This document shows positions 5,711 through 15,784 of a stretch of 26,108 bases of DNA, in pieces. Within the stretch, counting starts at the first letter, position 1, and the number at the start of each line of letters is the position of its first letter. The stretch covers positions 1-26,108 of the IMG/VR virus record IMGVR_UViG_3300034788_000159, one strand, 5' to 3'. The position numbers were made by a program, and so were the translations under genes. Source of the stretch: a virus. Below the pieces are notes generated by a model. That model was given only the letters and a program-made list of their open reading frames with translations, did no database searches and was not told the origin of the DNA.

Positions 5711-8700
5711 CAGTATCCTCCTCCATAGCCACCGCCACCGCTGGATCCTCCGCCCCCACTTGATCCACCAGACCCGCCACCACTAGGAGGAGTAGGAGGA
5801 GGAGTAGGAGGCTGTTGTTGAGGAGCTGGACTACTGGTTTCCGTAGTAGGAGTAGTTGTCTGCGTTGGTGTCGTAGTTGTTGGCGTAGTTGTTGTAGTTG
5901 AAGCAGTATCACTTGTGTTAGTTTCACTTGCATCAGTGGATTCGGAAACATTTGTCTGTTGAATTTGTGGGTCTGTTGTTGTGGATTGAGTGTAAGTTAT
6001 TGGTGCTGACCTTCCTAAACTCTCTTCCTTTGTATTGTATATTATACTATGTGCTGTGGGTACATGTACAGCTCCTACCATCTTACGTCCTGTAGTTGGG
6101 TGAACGTGGAAAGGCCCGTAATATGGATTACCATTTACCCAACCAACTTGTGTCTTAGGTAAACTATAAACACAGTCTACCACATTTACTACAAGCATGC
6201 CAGGGCCTGGTCTTTCTCCAATATCTGCCACAAAGTCTGGGCTGTATGATACTACAGGTATTAGTCTTGCCCCGACTCCTGTTTTTGTATTTATTATGAC
6301 TGGCGGAATCTTTTTATGTTTATCTTTACAGTTCATATTCTGAACTCCAACAACAGATCCAGCAGGGGTCAACAGGAGATCAAAACTACACTGTCCAACC
6401 ATACCACTATCTCCAGAAGTATATCCAATTCCAGGCTTCTGTGGGATTAAAGTTGTTACTATACCAACCGCTTCGCTACCGATACCAGATACTCCTCTAG
6501 TTGTGAAGTTATATGTATCTGTCTTAGAAATTCCAACAAATTCATTATCATTTAAGTCTAAGAAAGATCCTACTGACATCTGTATATGATATTCAGTATT
6601 GAATTTTAAATCTTTTGCTGGATCAACCTTGATAATTCTATCTGACAAAAATGATATTCTCTTGTCTTGTATTGGTATGGTTTCATGTACCACATTACTA
6701 GCTGACTCAGTAATACTGAGACTACCAGTTCCCTTGACTATCGCCTCATTGAAAGTAATAGAAAGAGATGTAGCAGTCTGAACTCCAACAGCGTCATCAG
6801 AAGGGGTCGTAAATGTTATGAATGGATCTATGGTATCTAAGTTAGTTCCATCTGCACCTATTCCAGAAGTAACACCGATGCCAGGCCCCTCTGTAACAGG
6901 ATACTTAGGAGGAACTACGTTAGTTGATGGGCAATATCCTTCTCCAGGCGATATCATGTAGACATCAACCACCGATCCATTTGAATCTATTACTGTTTGT
7001 GCTTTAGCTCCGCCTCCATTATGTGTTTTATCAATGATACTGACTATTGGAGGCACAGTGTATCCAAATCCTTTCTCTATTATCTGTAGTGTTAATATAC
7101 TTCCGTCTATTGATGATACAATAGGAATCATTGCAGCAGTTTTAGTTCCATTGCCATATACTTCTACCTTTGGAGGTATACAATCTGGCCACACAAAACC
7201 AGGCGGAACACTATCTGATAGATCATCCTGATTCTTTGGATTATTTGTTGTGTCATTACAGTTGAATAATTCTGGAACTCCTCCGCCCAACAAACTTAGG
7301 AATGAGAATTTCTTTGGAGAAGTTAGTAAGTTGATATTAGCTAAACCTAAAGTTTGATCTGCAACTTCTAAAGAAGAGAGTAACTTGGAGTTGTCGATTA
7401 CTGATTTGAAACTAATATCTGGTTTCTTTCTCATTCCTCCAGATTGTGTCCAATCTTTATACTCTTTACACTGTAGAGAATCACACTCTAAGAAAGACAT
7501 CACAGTATCTGTATAACTGCTAACCTTGTCTAATAAACTTCCAATATCACCCACTGATCCTGTCAACCAATCCAATCCCTGTGTAATTGGTTCTAATCCT
7601 TTCTTGATACCATCATTGATTCCAGCCATCAATGCTCCTATAGCCTGTTCGATGGCACAAGCAGTTCCGTTCAAAGCATTTCCCACCATGTCTTTGAACA
7701 TATCCTTTATCTCACCCAGAAGATCTCTTCCCAATTTATTGAAAACACAAAATATAATATCTGTTATCCTTTTGAACGCTGCAACTATTGGAGTTTTCTC
7801 TGCCTCCGTTACATACAATCCAATAAAGTCTCTATATCTCTTGGATAGAAATGCAGTTATCTTATCTCTTAGCACAGTGATGATTTTTTTCATCGCACCG
7901 TTAGCTAATTTAGTAGACCTCTCAATCTCCTTGTCTATATCTACAAGGAGATTCCTAGAAGTATCTACATACTGACCAGCATATTCTGTGAGTGAGTTAA
8001 TTGTCTTTAGAAAACTTCCAACAGTATGTGTAACATCACTGAGAGCATCATTGTCACAACCGTTGGTCATGGTAACTGTTTCAGATGCACCTCTATTAGC
8101 AAAAGCACCCTCAACTTTTTGTGCTTTACTTACACCCTCTGTTGCTAATGCATCAACTTTCTTACCAGATGGAGTTTCTTTTTCTTTAAACTCACCAACT
8201 TTATTCTCTGCATTATTTGATGGTGTTGCACCACCTTCCTTATCCTCTTCCAGTGGTAAACTGGTAGGGCCTTCTACGCCTGCCTCTCTACCAGAGAGAA
8301 CAGCAAATACATTCTCTCTTTCTACATCATCATTATATGATCCAGTGTTCTTGGGGCCTAGTGAGTTAACGTTTCTCGCTAAAGCACCGAAGATGACAGG
8401 TTGTTGTCCTTCTTCTCCATCTAAAAAGAATCCAAAGACAGTTTCTCCTCCCACCATTCTAGAACTGTTACCCATATTGGATTGACCAGCTCCAGATGTT
8501 GCATCTACAAGAACATGAGCCCACGGCAAATCATCATCGGATAATATGGTGTCATCAAATGGATGATATCCGATTATTCTAACTTTGCACCTAAATGCCC
8601 ATCCAGCATCCGTATCAGTGGCTTCATTTCGCCAAACACTTGGGTTAGCTACTCTGCCGATCCACCATATGAATCCATCTCGGCCAACAAAGTTGGTCTT

Positions 8701-8957: not shown

Positions 8958-10355
8958 TTATGTGAGTCCATACGAATCTCTGATGAGATTCAATGCAGTG
9001 ACATTTTTTCCATCTGATATTTCAAAATGGTGTCTCAAGCTACGAATCAAATAATATCCACTTAGTTCTTGATCCAGATTTTTATTTTCTGTATCATTAG
9101 GCCCTGATTCAGGAACCTGAACTTTAATAATATCTCCAGCCCGTAGGTTTATGTTACATGGTACTGTTATATTTAGGGACTGTTGGAAGAGCAATGTATA
9201 GCGAGAGAACGCTTTTGCCATGTCAGAATCTGACCTACCAGACCCTTCTACGTTGTCATCTTGGTTAGTTTCTAGTGTTGGGGCTAACATACCCTTATCA
9301 CCTATTCTTACCAAAACTCGTGAAGCCGCTTCACTGACATCCCCTGCTGGGATTGGAACGTCCTTACCCGCTACTTTTACTCCATCCTTATCTAATTCAT
9401 CCTTCAGTCTATGAGGGATAGCTTTCGTACTCCAGTCTAACGGATTATAGAAATATGTCAAGTTAGAGTATAATCCGACCCTTAAATTTTTCTGTAGATT
9501 CGTAGATTTGTCTGTGTAATGATGAATTATTCGGAAATTATTCTCTGGTTTCTCTTCCGACTCTATGAAAGTAGAGAATGTATAAGTTTCCGCTACTCTT
9601 TCATCTTTCTTCTTTGTTTCTTTCTTTGAAGGAGCAATGTCACCTGTCTGTGATATTAAACCATCAACTGACTTGAACTTGAAACCATCATAAGTTTCAT
9701 AGAAGAAAAATCCAGAAGTACCACCTACGCTACCTGTTTGTAGTGGTTGTGCTTTAGGGCATAACCAAGTCAAAATATAAAATGGCTTTCTGTTATTACC
9801 TATAAATTCATATGGCGTAATACTATCCTCTATCTCTGCTCTCTCCTCTAACTCCTCTTTCTTTATATTGAATATTTTTGGGTCTGTAAGAATGTCTCTG
9901 ATATGAGAACTTATATTGGCTTTTGAATATTTCTTCTGACATCTAGTAGTCTCATTCATTAAGTTCTCTAAGGAAGTGCATTTCAAGGTAAATGTTTCTT
10001 GGCCTTCGTTCTTAGATACATCTAAGATGCTAGTAACATATAATGGATTATTAAACTTTCCTTCCTGATCACCAAATATTAAATCACCAAAGTCAGTTCC
10101 AATAGTCATATCCAATCTCTCATACCCTCTCACTGGCAATCTACTGAGTAAGTTAGTGGTGTCTGAGCAGTTTATATAAACCGAGTATGATGGAGATAAT
10201 AAATCTTCAAAGTAATCAACAGTAATCACATTTTGAGAAATACTCTCAGCGCTGAGTTGTTCGTTATTTGGATCTCTTTTGTCGCCTGCAAACTGAATAT
10301 CTTCATCTACAGTTAGATTTGCCTTTTTGACAATGATTTTATTAAGACTTGACAT
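8958..10355 (-). CDS. 27: gp27-like baseplate hub protein
   Basis: 465 aa. The beta-rich N-terminus (ITVDYFEDLLSPSYSVYINC), the conserved YEFIGNNRKPFYILTWLCPK (about 182-201) and the C-terminal LRAGDIIKVQVPESGP / SGYYLIRSLRHHF segment resemble the gp27/gpD-type hub proteins of T4-like marine phages. In T4, gp27 (391 aa) forms the trimeric collar that holds the gp5 spike. Here the gene precedes gp5 with only cp12 between, supporting the call. The start overlaps the stop of the 618-aa tail protein by one base. Assignment rests on motif memory and position. Confidence 0.75.
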   Translation of the reverse strand: MSSLNKIIVKKANLTVDEDIQFAGDKRDPNNEQLSAESISQNVITVDYFEDLLSPSYSVYINCSDTTNLLSRLPVRGYERLDMTIGTDFGDLIFGDQEGKFNNPLYVTSILDVSKNEGQETFTLKCTSLENLMNETTRCQKKYSKANISSHIRDILTDPKIFNIKKEELEERAEIEDSITPYEFIGNNRKPFYILTWLCPKAQPLQTGSVGGTSGFFFYETYDGFKFKSVDGLISQTGDIAPSKKETKKKDERVAETYTFSTFIESEEKPENNFRIIHHYTDKSTNLQKNLRVGLYSNLTYFYNPLDWSTKAIPHRLKDELDKDGVKVAGKDVPIPAGDVSEAASRVLVRIGDKGMLAPTLETNQDDNVEGSGRSDSDMAKAFSRYTLLFQQSLNITVPCNINLRAGDIIKVQVPESGPNDTENKNLDQELSGYYLIRSLRHHFEISDGKNVTALNLIRDSYGLT

Positions 10356-12211
10356 TACGAGGCCCCCAGTTCGTTAAACAGGAATGATGAAAATACCTCT
10401 GTATCAGAACTTCCAATAGGAATTATCTGTGCATCTGGTGTGGGTGCTGGTTGAGTGACTGGTTTAGAAGGCATCGGAGTTTGATTTTTTGATACGATCA
10501 TAATATTATTTCCACCACCAGAGAAAGCTCCACCTTCAGCATACTCTGGATAGAAATCCATGTTGGTGTAAAAACCACCTTTTGAAAATGGCATCCACAA
10601 TCCACCCGCTGCGAATCCACCACCTACAACTCGAACATTATAACCATGTTCTTTCCTATCAAGCCTTCTCGCTTGTTCTTTCTTCTCATATGTCGCTCTT
10701 GCAGCGTCACTTCTGTTGAGAATATCTATGTATTGTTTTAGTGGCATATTCACTGTACCATTTATAACATCAATGAAAGTCTTTTTCTCAAATCCTGGCA
10801 CCTTCTTGATTTCCTCCATCAGTTGTTGTTGATGTTCTTCTAAATCTCGTATCGCAATGTCAGCTATTTGTTCTTGGAAAGTTTGAGTTTCTTCAAACGT
10901 AGTGTTCTCAAATTTTTTCATAACTTTAGTTGTTATTTCACTAGAATATCCATAATAACCATCCTCACCCATTATCTCTTTTTCTTTATATTTTTCAAAC
11001 TCTTTACCTACCTTCTGTTTTACTTTGCTATTGTGGGTTTCTTTCGTTTTAGTTATCATCTTACTATTAGAAACAAGTAGCGATGGTGGAGATACTTCAC
11101 CATATCGGTATCCTATTTTACCTGTAAATGGGATTAATTTTGGGCCTGTTTTTTTACCCTTTTCTGGAGTAAACTCACCGCCTGAATCAAAAAACTTTTT
11201 AGAATCTATTTTACCACCAGTAGAGAATCCCATATTCTTAGCTTCTCTCATCCTTCTACCAGTTAGACTAGGATCTTTTCTTGTAGCAGGGGTGTCAAAT
11301 GGAACAATAAATGCACTACCAGCAGGGCCTCTACTGACATATTCTTTACCATGACCTATAAAGTCTACACCTTTACCATCTAATGATACTGGATATCCTG
11401 ATTGAGGGCCCTCTATCCATCCACCTTCTGCCATTTCTGGAGTGACTTCACCTTTGACTTCCATACTACCAGTTTCTTGTTCAACTGTTGGTTCTGATTT
11501 CATATTCATCGCACCTTCTACATTCTCCTGTTCTGCTGGATTTTGAACCAACTCCGTAAATCTAGATTTTAGTCCATCCACCAATGAAGAAAATCTAGTA
11601 AGTTGTTCTTCTTTTATATCTCCTGTTAGCTCTTCTTTCTTCTCCTCTTCTGGTTCTTCTGATTCTTCTGATTTTACCTCCTGTTCTTCGTCTTTCTTTT
11701 CTTTTTCTTCGTCTCTAGCTTCCTTCTCTTTGCTCTCTTCTTCTTTCTTCTCGTCAGTCTTAACTTCCTTGAGTTGCTTTAAGTCTCCTTTACTTATCTC
11801 TTTACCTGTCTTTACAGTCTCTTCTACATTCTTGAGAGCTTCTGTCTTTTTTTGTTCTTCTTCTTTTATCTGTTGCTGTTGAACTTTTTCATCTCCAGCG
11901 AACTGATCATCAGTAGGTAAATCTTCAGCCTTTGTTTTATTTCCCTTAGAAAGTAACATAGGGAGCATCATCATGGCACCTACAGCACCCATGATCATCT
12001 TGCCGCCACCGCCACCACCTTTCTTTTTACCCTTAAATTTACTTAAAAAGTTTTCTGCTTTTTTAAATGCTGAATCGCCTGGAATATCTTTCCCTACTTT
12101 ATTTGTACTACTATTCAGAAAACCAGCAAATTTCTTGATACTACTCTCAGCAGTATCAACAGCCTTCTGTGCTTTTTGATTAACTTTTAAAGTAGATATC
12201 GAAGTCTTCAT
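10355..12211 (-). CDS. Low-complexity tail protein, tape-measure-associated (618 aa)
   Basis: 618 aa. Basic helical N-terminus, a poly-Gly stretch (about 65-70) before a short hydrophobic segment (KMIMGAVGAMMMLPMLL, 71-87), then a very acidic Lys/Glu coiled coil (about 107-205). A conserved block follows: GGWIEGPQSGYPVSLDG, FIGHGKEYVS and AFIVPFDTPATR (about 263-311), which I associate with tail proteins of marine T4-like phages. The second half is charged and helical with Gly-rich patches. It overlaps the 588-aa gene by 4 nt (ATGA). It may be a second tape-measure chain or internal tail protein. T4 has gp28/gp29 in the equivalent place, but homology is not visible to me. Confidence 0.65.
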   Translation of the reverse strand: MKTSISTLKVNQKAQKAVDTAESSIKKFAGFLNSSTNKVGKDIPGDSAFKKAENFLSKFKGKKKGGGGGGKMIMGAVGAMMMLPMLLSKGNKTKAEDLPTDDQFAGDEKVQQQQIKEEEQKKTEALKNVEETVKTGKEISKGDLKQLKEVKTDEKKEEESKEKEARDEEKEKKDEEQEVKSEESEEPEEEKKEELTGDIKEEQLTRFSSLVDGLKSRFTELVQNPAEQENVEGAMNMKSEPTVEQETGSMEVKGEVTPEMAEGGWIEGPQSGYPVSLDGKGVDFIGHGKEYVSRGPAGSAFIVPFDTPATRKDPSLTGRRMREAKNMGFSTGGKIDSKKFFDSGGEFTPEKGKKTGPKLIPFTGKIGYRYGEVSPPSLLVSNSKMITKTKETHNSKVKQKVGKEFEKYKEKEIMGEDGYYGYSSEITTKVMKKFENTTFEETQTFQEQIADIAIRDLEEHQQQLMEEIKKVPGFEKKTFIDVINGTVNMPLKQYIDILNRSDAARATYEKKEQARRLDRKEHGYNVRVVGGGFAAGGLWMPFSKGGFYTNMDFYPEYAEGGAFSGGGNNIMIVSKNQTPMPSKPVTQPAPTPDAQIIPIGSSDTEVFSSFLFNELGAS

Positions 12212-13974
12212 AAGGCATCCACTATATTGAATACAGACTTAGCATGTAGAATGTGCATGTTCGCAGTATCAATAGCAAGTAATGATGGAATTTGGTTCTG
12301 TGGTTTAACAAACTCTCTGTCCATAACATCACTAGGTTTTTTTGCTGGAGCACCCTTCTTACCCCCACCTGATGCAGGGATTTCTAGTGGTATAATATTA
12401 TCTCCACCACCGCCACCGCCGCCTGATGAACTGCCACCACCTTTTGCTGGTTTAGATATATCTCCAGCAACCTGTGTTGTTGCATCTTTTTTCTTAGTAT
12501 CTGGTTTTATTGCCTCTGCCTGTGCAATATTATCATTTGCAAAACTAATTGGATCTTTATTAGCTTCACCTGGCTTTACAGTGTTTATACCTTTCTTTTT
12601 CCTACCTCCACCGCCACCTTTTTTAGGTGTTAATGCTTTTTTTACACCTCCAAGAAAATTACCAGCTTTTTCTTTGAGACCACCAATGGTGTTCTTTATA
12701 TTATTGAATATTTGACCAGGCTTTGACTTTCCATCTTTACCATCTTTACCATCCTTAGCTTCTTCTGCGAAGTTTGGATCATTCATAACTTTTTCAACAT
12801 TTTCCCTAGTTCCTTCCATAGTTGTTGTGCCTTCTGCTATGGGGATAAGTTCATTAATTTCATCCTGTAGGGCTTTTATTCTTCCTCGTAAGTCTTTCAT
12901 CTTCGCCGCAATCTCTGGATCTTCAGGGTTATTACTGTGAGCTCTTTTTAAGTCATTCAGATCGTCTTTTAGATCTCTGTGTTCATCAAATGCCGCAACG
13001 ATTCTTCTAGTGGTTGGTGAATCATTCCCTGATGTGATCTGGCCACGATCCATGCTAATTTTTAAATCGTGTACTTTCTTGTCACCGTCATTATCTGTAA
13101 ATTTTTTAAATCTATAATCATCTGTAAATATACCTTTTTCAGTATCCGTGACACTCTGTTTTTCTTGGACTCCTAGTGATTTGAACCTCTTCACCCTCTT
13201 TGGTGTAAAATCCAAAATACTAGAAAACTTATCCAATATATTTTTGAATATGCCAGCATTACCCTTGTCTTTCTTTACTTTTGCCTCTTCCTGTTTCTTC
13301 TCTAACTTCTTCTTCTTTCTACCTCTAATGAAATCTATGCCTTTTTTGAGTAATGCTCCACCAGCTGCCACTGCTCCACCAGCGACTGCAACCTTGGCTA
13401 CAGTTGGAAGTGCAAGTGCAGCCGCACCAGCGATAGCGACTCCTTTGATTAACTTACCAAATATACCTCCTCCACCACCTTTATCTTTACCCTTAGCTGA
13501 TGCAAGTTTTTTTACAAACTTACTTGCCAACTCATTAGCCTTACCAATAAACTCTACAGACCCACCTAATTTCCCTCTCATTCCCTCAAGACTTGATCCG
13601 AATTGATTCAATGAATTCAATCCACCATCAAATATCTTACCTAGAAACTTGTTAGGGTCAAATGAATTTACCTTTTCTTCAATTTTATTAGATAACTTAG
13701 GTATCAGATTTTGAGCCTTCGACTCTACAATCTTATTGATCTTCCTGATTCCACCCTGTTTCAGATCTGATGCTATTGGTTTTATCTTAGAAACAGACTT
13801 TTGAAGAAACTTTGAACCCCCTACCTTAGCTCCTGATATTCCTTTTCTAGTAGCTCTGACTGCTTTTTTACCAGCCAATGCAGTCTTTTTGACAACCTTA
13901 GACTTAGACACACGTTTGGCTGCACCTTTGGCTGCCTTACCTAATGCTCCGATTGTAGATGAGAGTTTACCCAT
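12208..13974 (-). CDS. Tape-measure-like tail protein (588 aa; gp29 counterpart by position and size)
   Basis: 588 aa. Strongly basic, Ala/Lys-rich helical N-terminus (1-100), a Gly cluster before an Ala/Val hydrophobic segment (about 178-209, VAIAGAAALALPTVAKVAVA), a charged coiled-coil section (about 210-390), three collagen-like GKD repeats (about 407-416) and a Gly/Ser/Lys-rich tail. This is tape-measure-like architecture. The length is close to T4 gp29 (590 aa), the tail-length ruler. It directly follows gp26 plus the 63-codon frame, joined by a predicted -1 frameshift. In lambda-type phages the gene after the frameshifted tail assembly chaperone is the tape measure. It overlaps the 63-codon frame by 8 nt. 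Confidence 0.65.
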   Translation of the reverse strand: MGKLSSTIGALGKAAKGAAKRVSKSKVVKKTALAGKKAVRATRKGISGAKVGGSKFLQKSVSKIKPIASDLKQGGIRKINKIVESKAQNLIPKLSNKIEEKVNSFDPNKFLGKIFDGGLNSLNQFGSSLEGMRGKLGGSVEFIGKANELASKFVKKLASAKGKDKGGGGGIFGKLIKGVAIAGAAALALPTVAKVAVAGGAVAAGGALLKKGIDFIRGRKKKKLEKKQEEAKVKKDKGNAGIFKNILDKFSSILDFTPKRVKRFKSLGVQEKQSVTDTEKGIFTDDYRFKKFTDNDGDKKVHDLKISMDRGQITSGNDSPTTRRIVAAFDEHRDLKDDLNDLKRAHSNNPEDPEIAAKMKDLRGRIKALQDEINELIPIAEGTTTMEGTRENVEKVMNDPNFAEEAKDGKDGKDGKSKPGQIFNNIKNTIGGLKEKAGNFLGGVKKALTPKKGGGGGRKKKGINTVKPGEANKDPISFANDNIAQAEAIKPDTKKKDATTQVAGDISKPAKGGGSSSGGGGGGGDNIIPLEIPASGGGKKGAPAKKPSDVMDREFVKPQNQIPSLLAIDTANMHILHAKSVFNIVDAL

Positions 13975-14158
13975 TTCGTGCCTGTGCTTCTCTTTGTCTT
14001 TGTTTTAGTTGTTCCTCTTCAATATGAAGTCTGAGTAGTCCAACATAGATGTCTCGTTCCCAAGGCGGCATGTTCTCTATCTCCCATAGGGAATATTTAT
14101 GGAACTGCATGAGGGCGAAATTAATGCGAAAGTATGTCTCAAGATCAATATGAGACAT
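13967..14158 (-). CDS. 63-codon frame: C-terminal part of a frameshifted tail assembly chaperone (gp51 position)
   Basis: 63 aa if translated alone. It has SLWEIENMPPWERDIYVGLL (about 23-42), a pattern I associate with the T-domain of tail assembly chaperones, and a Glu/Gln/Arg-rich helical end (EEEQLKQRQREAQARNG). Its ATG lies 2 nt after the gp26 stop and is buried in the 12-bp hairpin at 14130-14162. It is in the -1 frame of gp26 and is reached by slippage at 14167-14173, so the main product may be the gp26 fusion. In T4 the gene after 26 is 51 (hub assembly catalyst); this may be its counterpart by place, but T4 gp51 is much longer. Confidence 0.7.
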   Translation of the reverse strand: MSHIDLETYFRINFALMQFHKYSLWEIENMPPWERDIYVGLLRLHIEEEQLKQRQREAQARNG

Positions 14159-14173
14159 ACTTAGGCGAAAAAA
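14130..14173 (-). other. Programmed -1 ribosomal frameshift signal joining gp26 to the 63-codon frame
   Basis: Minus strand. The heptamer TTTTTTC (14173-14167) reads GA T TTT TTC in the gp26 frame, the X XXY YYZ register for -1 slippage. A 4-nt spacer (GCCT) follows, then a perfect 12-bp stem AAGTATGTCTCA / TGAGACATACTT (14162-14151 with 14141-14130) around a 9-nt loop. The gp26 TAA lies across the spacer/stem border. After slippage the ribosome reads CGC CTA AGT ATG and continues through the 63-codon frame. The fusion would have 238 gp26 residues, three linker residues (Arg-Leu-Ser) and 63 more, 304 in total. Confidence 0.85.
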
Positions 14174-14880
14174 TCCGTTAGCCCCTCTAATACTATAGTG
14201 TTTTTCTTTTTAGTGTTTGGATTAACTACCTCTAGTGTATGTGTCAGTTTAGGCATGGTCTCAAAGAATTGTTCAATCTTTTGAAACTGTGCTGATGTCA
14301 ATGATTCTACCCACTCTTTGAGTTCTTTCTTTGTACACTCAGATGCTGAAAACATATCCTTATCATTATAAACCATATCAATAGATGTCGCTATCATCTC
14401 AAATGATTTTTCTACAGCGTCCTCATCATCTTGACTGAAGTTAGTTTCTATGAACTGACTAAGAGATGGATACTTCATTTTTACAGAATAACCATCTGAT
14501 AGTTCAATATCTGAACTATGTTCATCGTTGCTAGATACTTCAATATCATCAATAAGGACTGTGACAGGAACTTCTGTCTTGCCATCATCACCACATGTCA
14601 CCATAAGTTCAATTGATTCACCGACAGATTTTCCACGAATATTCAAAAATAGATATTCAATATCAAAACTTGGTAGTTGATCGACTTTGATTCCCTTTGT
14701 TAAAACACATTCTTTTATAACTTGTTTAACAGCAGTGGTTATTTGTTTTTGATTTTCTGACTCTAGCGCAAGTATGAGAACTTTTTCTTCTCTTACCAAA
14801 AATGGCCTATACTTGATAGTTTTGCCATTGGATGGTAATTTCAATTCATACTCAGCAGTTGAAATTTTAGGTAAAGGCAT
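14161..14880 (-). CDS. 26: Baseplate hub assembly protein gp26 / tail assembly chaperone N-terminal part
   Basis: 239 aa. It matches the T4_baseplate (gp26) family: an N-terminal pattern ELKLPSNGKTIKYRPFLVRE and EEKVLILALESENQ followed by a helical middle and a short C-terminal strand. T4 gp26 is 208 aa and acts in hub assembly. The end reads GLTDFFA and stop, with the two Phe codons forming the slippery heptamer of a likely -1 frameshift. A minority of ribosomes would therefore make a 304-aa extended form. The gene follows gp54 after 31 nt containing a late-promoter-like CTAAATAA. No clear Shine-Dalgarno is seen. Confidence 0.82.
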   Translation of the reverse strand: MPLPKISTAEYELKLPSNGKTIKYRPFLVREEKVLILALESENQKQITTAVKQVIKECVLTKGIKVDQLPSFDIEYLFLNIRGKSVGESIELMVTCGDDGKTEVPVTVLIDDIEVSSNDEHSSDIELSDGYSVKMKYPSLSQFIETNFSQDDEDAVEKSFEMIATSIDMVYNDKDMFSASECTKKELKEWVESLTSAQFQKIEQFFETMPKLTHTLEVVNPNTKKKNTIVLEGLTDFFA

Positions 14881-14911: not shown

Positions 14912-15784
14912 TTAATTTGAAGCTTTATCTACAGTATTTTCAGACACATTCTCAGCGTTGACTACCTGTGAAAGACCCTTCTGTGGCACCGCTGGCGCAG
15001 GGGTTCCTTGATTGTTGACAATATAGTATCTGTCATATGCAAACTCAACAGTAACTTGTAATAGGTTTCCGCCTGCATAGTTGAGTGGTATGTCTTGTAT
15101 TGATATAGGGAAGGCATTTATAAAGTTATAACTGATAGCATCAGGTTTAAACTCTTCTGGAAGACCATCCGCACCTAGATTTCTTTCAAACTTTGTGATT
15201 GATATATCTCTTTTATAGTCGTGAGGATATCTAAATCTATGGAAGGCAAATCTTTCATCATTATTTGGATATCCGCCAGGGTATCCCTGATTATGTTTGA
15301 TTCCCTCTTGTGTTACATAAAGAGGATTCATAAAGTTAAACCACTCTTGGAAGAGTTTCAAAGTTTTATAATCTTGAGACACAAAGAAAGTCAATGATAT
15401 ATCAGTGTATTGTCTTTGTGTAGCAAATCTCTCTCTAATACCCTGTCTACTTCCAACTTCCTGTACCACAGCCATTGATACGCCAGGCAACATTGCCTCA
15501 TTACATAGTATCTCATATACTTCTTTCTGTCCATTATCTAATAATCCACAAGATGTCAACCATCTACTTAAGTCATTGGCAACTTTTTCACTTTGATAAA
15601 CACTGGATGATGCAGCATCTAATGTAACTGGAAACGCATCAATGGGTTCTGCACCAATGTTAGCTAGATCCATCTGAACTTTAAAAAAGTTAGAGAGAGC
15701 TGGGGCACCAAGAGCCGATCTAAATGTTTCTATATCTTTTACTAACTTATCGTTGCTAAAATAACTTTTCTGTTGCCTGGCCAT
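14912..15784 (-). CDS. 54: Baseplate tail-tube initiator gp54-like
   Basis: 290 aa. It shows the tail-tube fold pattern of cyanophage gp54/gp48 proteins: LPGVSMAVVQEVG (99-111), FATQRQYTDISLTFFVSQDY (120-139), FQEWFNFMNPL (145-155), FRYPHDYKRDISITKFERNL and a C-terminal FAYDRYY. T4 gp54 (320 aa) starts tail-tube polymerisation on the gp48 cap. gp48 is encoded on the opposite strand at 16766-18418. The C-terminal 40 residues are Pro/Ala/Asn-rich and probably disordered. The start is 12 nt from the first in-frame ATG of the divergent gp4 frame. gp48 and gp54 share this fold, so the exact number is less certain than the family. Confidence 0.8.
   Translation of the reverse strand: MARQQKSYFSNDKLVKDIETFRSALGAPALSNFFKVQMDLANIGAEPIDAFPVTLDAASSSVYQSEKVANDLSRWLTSCGLLDNGQKEVYEILCNEAMLPGVSMAVVQEVGSRQGIRERFATQRQYTDISLTFFVSQDYKTLKLFQEWFNFMNPLYVTQEGIKHNQGYPGGYPNNDERFAFHRFRYPHDYKRDISITKFERNLGADGLPEEFKPDAISYNFINAFPISIQDIPLNYAGGNLLQVTVEFAYDRYYIVNNQGTPAPAVPQKGLSQVVNAENVSENTVDKASN

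Follow-up and report, generated by a model that had tools for sequence, protein, structure and literature searches.

Does the "gp51" reading frame that follows gene 26 in T4-like cyanophages represent a gene of its own, or is it the frameshifted end of gene 26? We addressed this question in a marine T4-like cyanophage contig from an uncultured virus (IMG/VR record IMGVR_UViG_3300034788_000159; "the window" designates this whole stretch of 26,108 nt). An earlier sequence-only reading of the window had proposed that a programmed -1 frameshift fuses gp26 to the next frame, in the manner of the lambda G/G-T tail chaperones. Conservation across relatives and a natural in-frame homologue, T4 gp51, support this proposal, and these comparisons make it very probable that the locus produces a short and a long tail assembly chaperone (TAC), designated TAC-N and TAC-NC, by programmed -1 frameshifting. 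The elements of the junction all lie on the minus strand:

14161..14880, minus strand: gene 26, putative short tail assembly chaperone TAC-N, 239 aa (PF12322 T4_baseplate, E 2.7e-74; phrog_150, E 2e-80)
14167..14173, minus strand: slippery heptamer T TTT TTC in the gp26 register (read from the sequence and conserved in relatives)
14163..14166, minus strand: 4-nt spacer GCCT
14130..14162, minus strand: stem-loop 3' of the heptamer, 12 bp with a 9-nt loop, probable frameshift stimulator (shuffles; compensatory changes in relatives)
13967..14167, minus strand: -1 frame extension, predicted TAC-C domain (phrog_634, E 2.1e-24; aligns to the T4 gp51 family)
13967..14158, minus strand: 63-codon "gp51" open reading frame (ORF) within the extension

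The 3' end of gp26 reads GAT TTT TTC GCC TAA (protein end L T D F F A stop), so that the heptamer occupies the last Phe codons in the X XXY YYZ register, as the sequence-only reading had described along with the spacer, the perfect stem over the gp26 stop and the next ATG, and the open -1 frame, all of which were borne out. This frame runs without a stop into the 63-codon ORF (...GLTDFF-RLS-MSHIDLETYF...), and its in-silico translation yields a fusion of 304 aa. The gp51 ATG is located at 14158-14156, 2 nt after the gp26 stop codon (TAA-gt-ATG). Heptamer frequency was dropped as evidence in its own right, since the window is AT-rich and the 13 occurrences of TTTTTTC are at chance level (11.5 expected). 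Hence, the case rests on the position and register of the heptamer, on the hairpin, and on conservation.

Relatives were drawn from IMG/VR and phage records, which provided 175 distinct junctions in which a long ORF precedes a gp51 domain. The domain was in the -1 frame in 174 of these and in the +1 frame in the last one (S-SCSM1). Outside of the Ackermannviridae, T TTT TTC or T TTT TTT was found in register in all 161 -1-frame junctions, a set spanning Kyanoviridae (including Pelagibacter phage Mosig and Methylophilales phage Melnitz-1), the KVP40-like VH7D and 6E35.1a, the Aeh1-like AS-szw, pf16, phiM7, Xanthomonas X1, and Stenotrophomonas Yut2. Two phages outside of this set agree, namely RHph_N34 (T TTT TTG) and nACB2 (T TTT TTT). 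Synonymous sites were then considered in 81 representatives sharing <80% nucleotide identity, all of which use TTT for the first Phe, against 68% TTT in the rest of the gene (464 TTT for 221 TTC). The codon preceding the heptamer Phe invariably ended in T (81/81) despite a varying amino acid (Asp, Ser, Asn, or Ala). The associated log10 probabilities, -13.7 for the Phe codon and -14.9 for the preceding T, are rough and overstated, as the sequences are related.

Besides S-SCSM1, some relatives depart from this pattern. In the Ackermannviridae (13 junctions), the domain is likewise in the -1 frame, but the site is a non-canonical R ATT TTC (GA[A/G] ATT TTC), and in one of these phages, Vi01, the -1 frame opens only at this site. 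Similarly, Vibrio D506 carries TAC-C in the -1 frame at a TCA CTT TTC site, without a canonical heptamer. Full re-pairing is possible for the A-site codon only at both the Ackermannviridae and D506 sites.

T4 itself provides a natural counterpart of the predicted fusion. As the sequence-only reading had stated, T4 genes 26 and 51 are separate, and they are divergently transcribed (6803-8229 of the T4 stretch examined). Both are PF12322 paralogues: residues 1-201 of T4 gp51 (249 aa) match this domain (E 3.9e-52), and gp51 matches phrog_150 over its full length including the C-terminal part, whereas T4 gp26 matches the first 235 columns only and ends before that part. An in-silico frameshifted cyanophage profile aligned end to end with the T4 gp51 family (226 columns; hhalign, E 3.1e-18), and the TAC-C extension alone did so with an E-value of 3.4e-7. 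The alignment is gapless at the frameshift junction, where DFFRLSMSHIDLETYF is paired with DIFRLLLNPDEVFSFY, and covers the RLS residues preceding the ATG. Since T4 gp51 consists of a gp26-like domain followed by a tail that aligns without a gap to the fusion, sequence comparison indicates that T4 devotes a separate gene to each form, 26 to the short one and 51 to the long one. In a tree of the TAC-N domain, T4 gp26 and gp51 each fell in a supported clade, their joint placement not being resolved by the tree. Vibrio phage pv27 encodes short and long gp26/gp51 paralogues in tandem (11-1353 of the stretch examined), an apparent second solution without a frameshift.

We next consider the hairpin, in which AAGTATGTCTCA (14162-14151, minus strand) pairs with TGAGACATACTT (14141-14130) over a perfect 12 bp, with the loop at 14150-14142, such that the stem covers most of the gp26 stop codon plus the next ATG. 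Its predicted fold of -19.2 kcal/mol was not equalled in any of 200 dinucleotide shuffles (z -6.0; z -5.1 against synonymous shuffles). Across relatives, the segment following the heptamer was more stable than synonymous-codon shuffles (z < -1) in 18/18 representatives of the window group (mean z -3.4) and in 42/44 of an S-CAM1-type group (mean z -3.6). These two groups place a hairpin at the same position with unrelated sequences (GUAUGUCUCA/UGAGACAUAC vs ACUCUUCCA/UGGAAGGGU). Within the groups, changes affecting both sides of a pair were observed (UA to AU and UA to GU; CG to GC), and pairing exceeded that of slid controls (92.9% vs at most 49%, and 95.5% vs at most 55%). Of the features whose conservation across T4-like cyanophages the sequence-only reading proposed to check, the heptamer and -1 frame hold throughout the 161 junctions and the hairpin in the two main cyanophage groups; the ACG-2014d, AS-szw, and X1 types show a weak hairpin or none.

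These features suggest that the hairpin acts as a frameshift stimulator. Alternatively, it might mask the gp51 ATG, or act as an attenuator or terminator, and not stimulate frameshifting, a scenario that is compatible with a stimulator-free frameshift. In the window group, the 5' arm does contain the ATG, as expected if the hairpin hides this start codon. However, the S-CAM1-type hairpin, located at the same position, differs in sequence and comes without an ATG, and the hairpin of the window is not followed by a T-run. Because most members of the S-CAM1-type group lack the ATG yet keep the hairpin, masking is unlikely to be the main reason for this structure and would be at best a secondary effect; overall, we consider a role other than stimulation improbable. 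It seems likely instead that the Kyanoviridae switch is a structure-stimulated version of G/GT, driven by a conserved 3' hairpin found in two unrelated sequences, and that in about half of the sampled junctions, where the gp51 domain is without an ATG, this domain is probably no separate gene.

A second alternative is that translation ends at the gp26 TAA and resumes at the ATG lying 2 nt downstream, making a separate 63-aa gp51, with the heptamer being coincidental. The TAA-gt-ATG spacing fits such coupling, 80 of the 161 -1-frame relatives possess an ATG, and S-SCSM1 encodes its gp51 outside of the -1 frame with an ATG. In the other 81 relatives, however, no ATG is found near the junction, 35 have no ATG, GTG, or TTG, and a Shine-Dalgarno-like motif is present at only 1 of the 80 junctions that do have an ATG (79/80 without). 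Given these counts, many lineages probably produce TAC-C solely in fused form. GenBank carries no annotation of this domain for ACG-2014d, S-PRM1, S-WAM1, S-CAM1, and Vi01. Termination-reinitiation is further at odds with the heptamer codons frozen at synonymous sites and with the gapless alignment to T4 gp51 over the junction, RLS included, making it very unlikely. Finally, transcriptional slippage on the T6 run could also yield the fused frame, and a mixed product is expected under either mechanism, but such slippage normally needs longer runs, a C follows in 77 of the 81 representatives so that the run is only 6 T in nearly all of them, and it would need neither the fixed register to the reading frame nor a stable 3' hairpin, hence we give it next to no weight.

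Under programmed frameshifting, gene 26 would first yield the short chaperone TAC-N. The downstream hairpin would pause a fraction of the ribosomes at the 3' end of the gene, where they could slip by -1 on T TTT TTC, with tRNA-Phe re-pairing from TTT to TTT and from TTC to TTT. Slipped ribosomes would bypass the stop located two codons on and add ~66 residues (TAC-C, the "gp51" domain), leading to a sub-stoichiometric 304-aa TAC-NC. By analogy to lambda gpG/gpGT, many TAC-N and few TAC-NC may coat the tape measure, while TAC-C may recruit tube subunits. In this scheme, the slippage and how often it takes place are inferred, as are the function as a chaperone and the proteins with which it would act.

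In line with the proposed chaperone role, a tail tube gene recognized by sequence matches directly precedes gp26, and the gene that follows the junction is a candidate for the tape measure:

14912..15784, minus strand: tail tube protein gene just upstream (Phage_TTP_2, E 1.5e-18; phrog_45, E 6.7e-36)
12208..13974, minus strand: 588-aa protein directly downstream, candidate tape measure (position, length, hydrophobic stretch at ~171-209)

Several observations weigh against this overall interpretation. S-SCSM1 retains an intact heptamer, but its gp51 domain has a separate ATG and lies in the +1 frame (~1180-1215 of the stretch examined), reflecting either a sequencing indel or a lineage with an uncoupled gp51. 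The window itself has an ATG for gp51, and some independent gp51 product may thus be made. The tape-measure-like nature that the sequence-only reading had attributed to the 588-aa protein is plausible from its position, length, and hydrophobic stretch, but the protein showed no similarity in sequence to T4 gp29. Lastly, the likeness of the predicted gp26 fold (AlphaFold2 model, pLDDT 84) to the HK97 TAC is suggestive only: 2ob9 was the highest-probability PDB match among the 50 listed (probability 0.72, next best 0.20), with an E-value of 0.84 and TMt of 0.44-0.53. For a T4-gp51-like model, no TAC, 2ob9 included, was among the 50 PDB matches listed. A PDB sequence search with the gp26 profile returned marginal prefoldin matches only (E 0.06-0.07), which were taken as noise. 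Elsewhere in the hub region, a 618-aa protein (10355-12211, minus strand) matches endolysin-annotated phage families (phrog_1200), and is possibly a tail-associated lysozyme judging from these matches.

In practice, the "gp51 baseplate hub assembly catalyst" annotated in hundreds of cyanophage genomes would be corrected to the frameshifted end of gp26, and T4 gp51, which in 2010 was considered essential but had no known function, gains a concrete role as a long tail assembly chaperone. The core insight dates from 2022: Vladimirov, Gautam & Davidson (Virology 2022;566:9-15) reportedly identified the T4-like chaperone genes and found frameshifting to be conserved in several T4-like groups, with genes 26 and 51 of T4 said to specify TAC-N and TAC-NC, respectively. 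The lambda-like chaperone reading of the window is supported, and corresponds to an arrangement already published for T4-like phages. Beyond this, the junctions form a natural series (intact, start-less, and rearranged), and the hairpin data add a testable stimulator. No description of a conserved, covarying cyanophage hairpin was found in the literature searched, where the 2022 study is known via citations only, and the hairpin is the only part of the finding not met in this earlier literature. For the cyanophage gp26/gp51 frameshift, nothing direct was found in the same literature apart from PMC12846349, which treats poly-T signals for frameshifting in T4-like TAC-N genes as known, citing the 2022 study.

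Compared to previously described systems, the present locus involves the same 26/51 family genes as the T4-like TACs of the 2022 study, and represents another member from an uncultured viral contig. T4 gp26 and gp51 have been considered hub assembly chaperones, gp51 being essential yet outside of the particle (PMC3004832). T4 gp26 corresponds to TAC-N and gp51 to a gp26-like domain with the same C-terminal domain, except that T4 uses two divergent genes and no frameshift. A 2016 review had described G-T frameshifting as conserved in long-tailed phages "except T4" (PMC5009743), a gap closed by Vladimirov, Gautam & Davidson in 2022; our result agrees, and is in this respect true but already known. 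In the Pakpunavirus/Vandenendeviridae phage Adele, PMC12846349 likewise describes a -1 frameshift TAC-N/TAC-NC locus, elsewhere annotated as a separate hypothetical gene, although with a GTTTTT motif and in another phage family. With lambda gpG/gpGT, the locus shares a short/long chaperone pair (PMC5009743), an X XXY YYZ heptamer in register near the 3' end, and an open -1 frame beyond, but differs in that no sequence homology is shown, the slippery site is different, and a strong conserved hairpin follows the site here.
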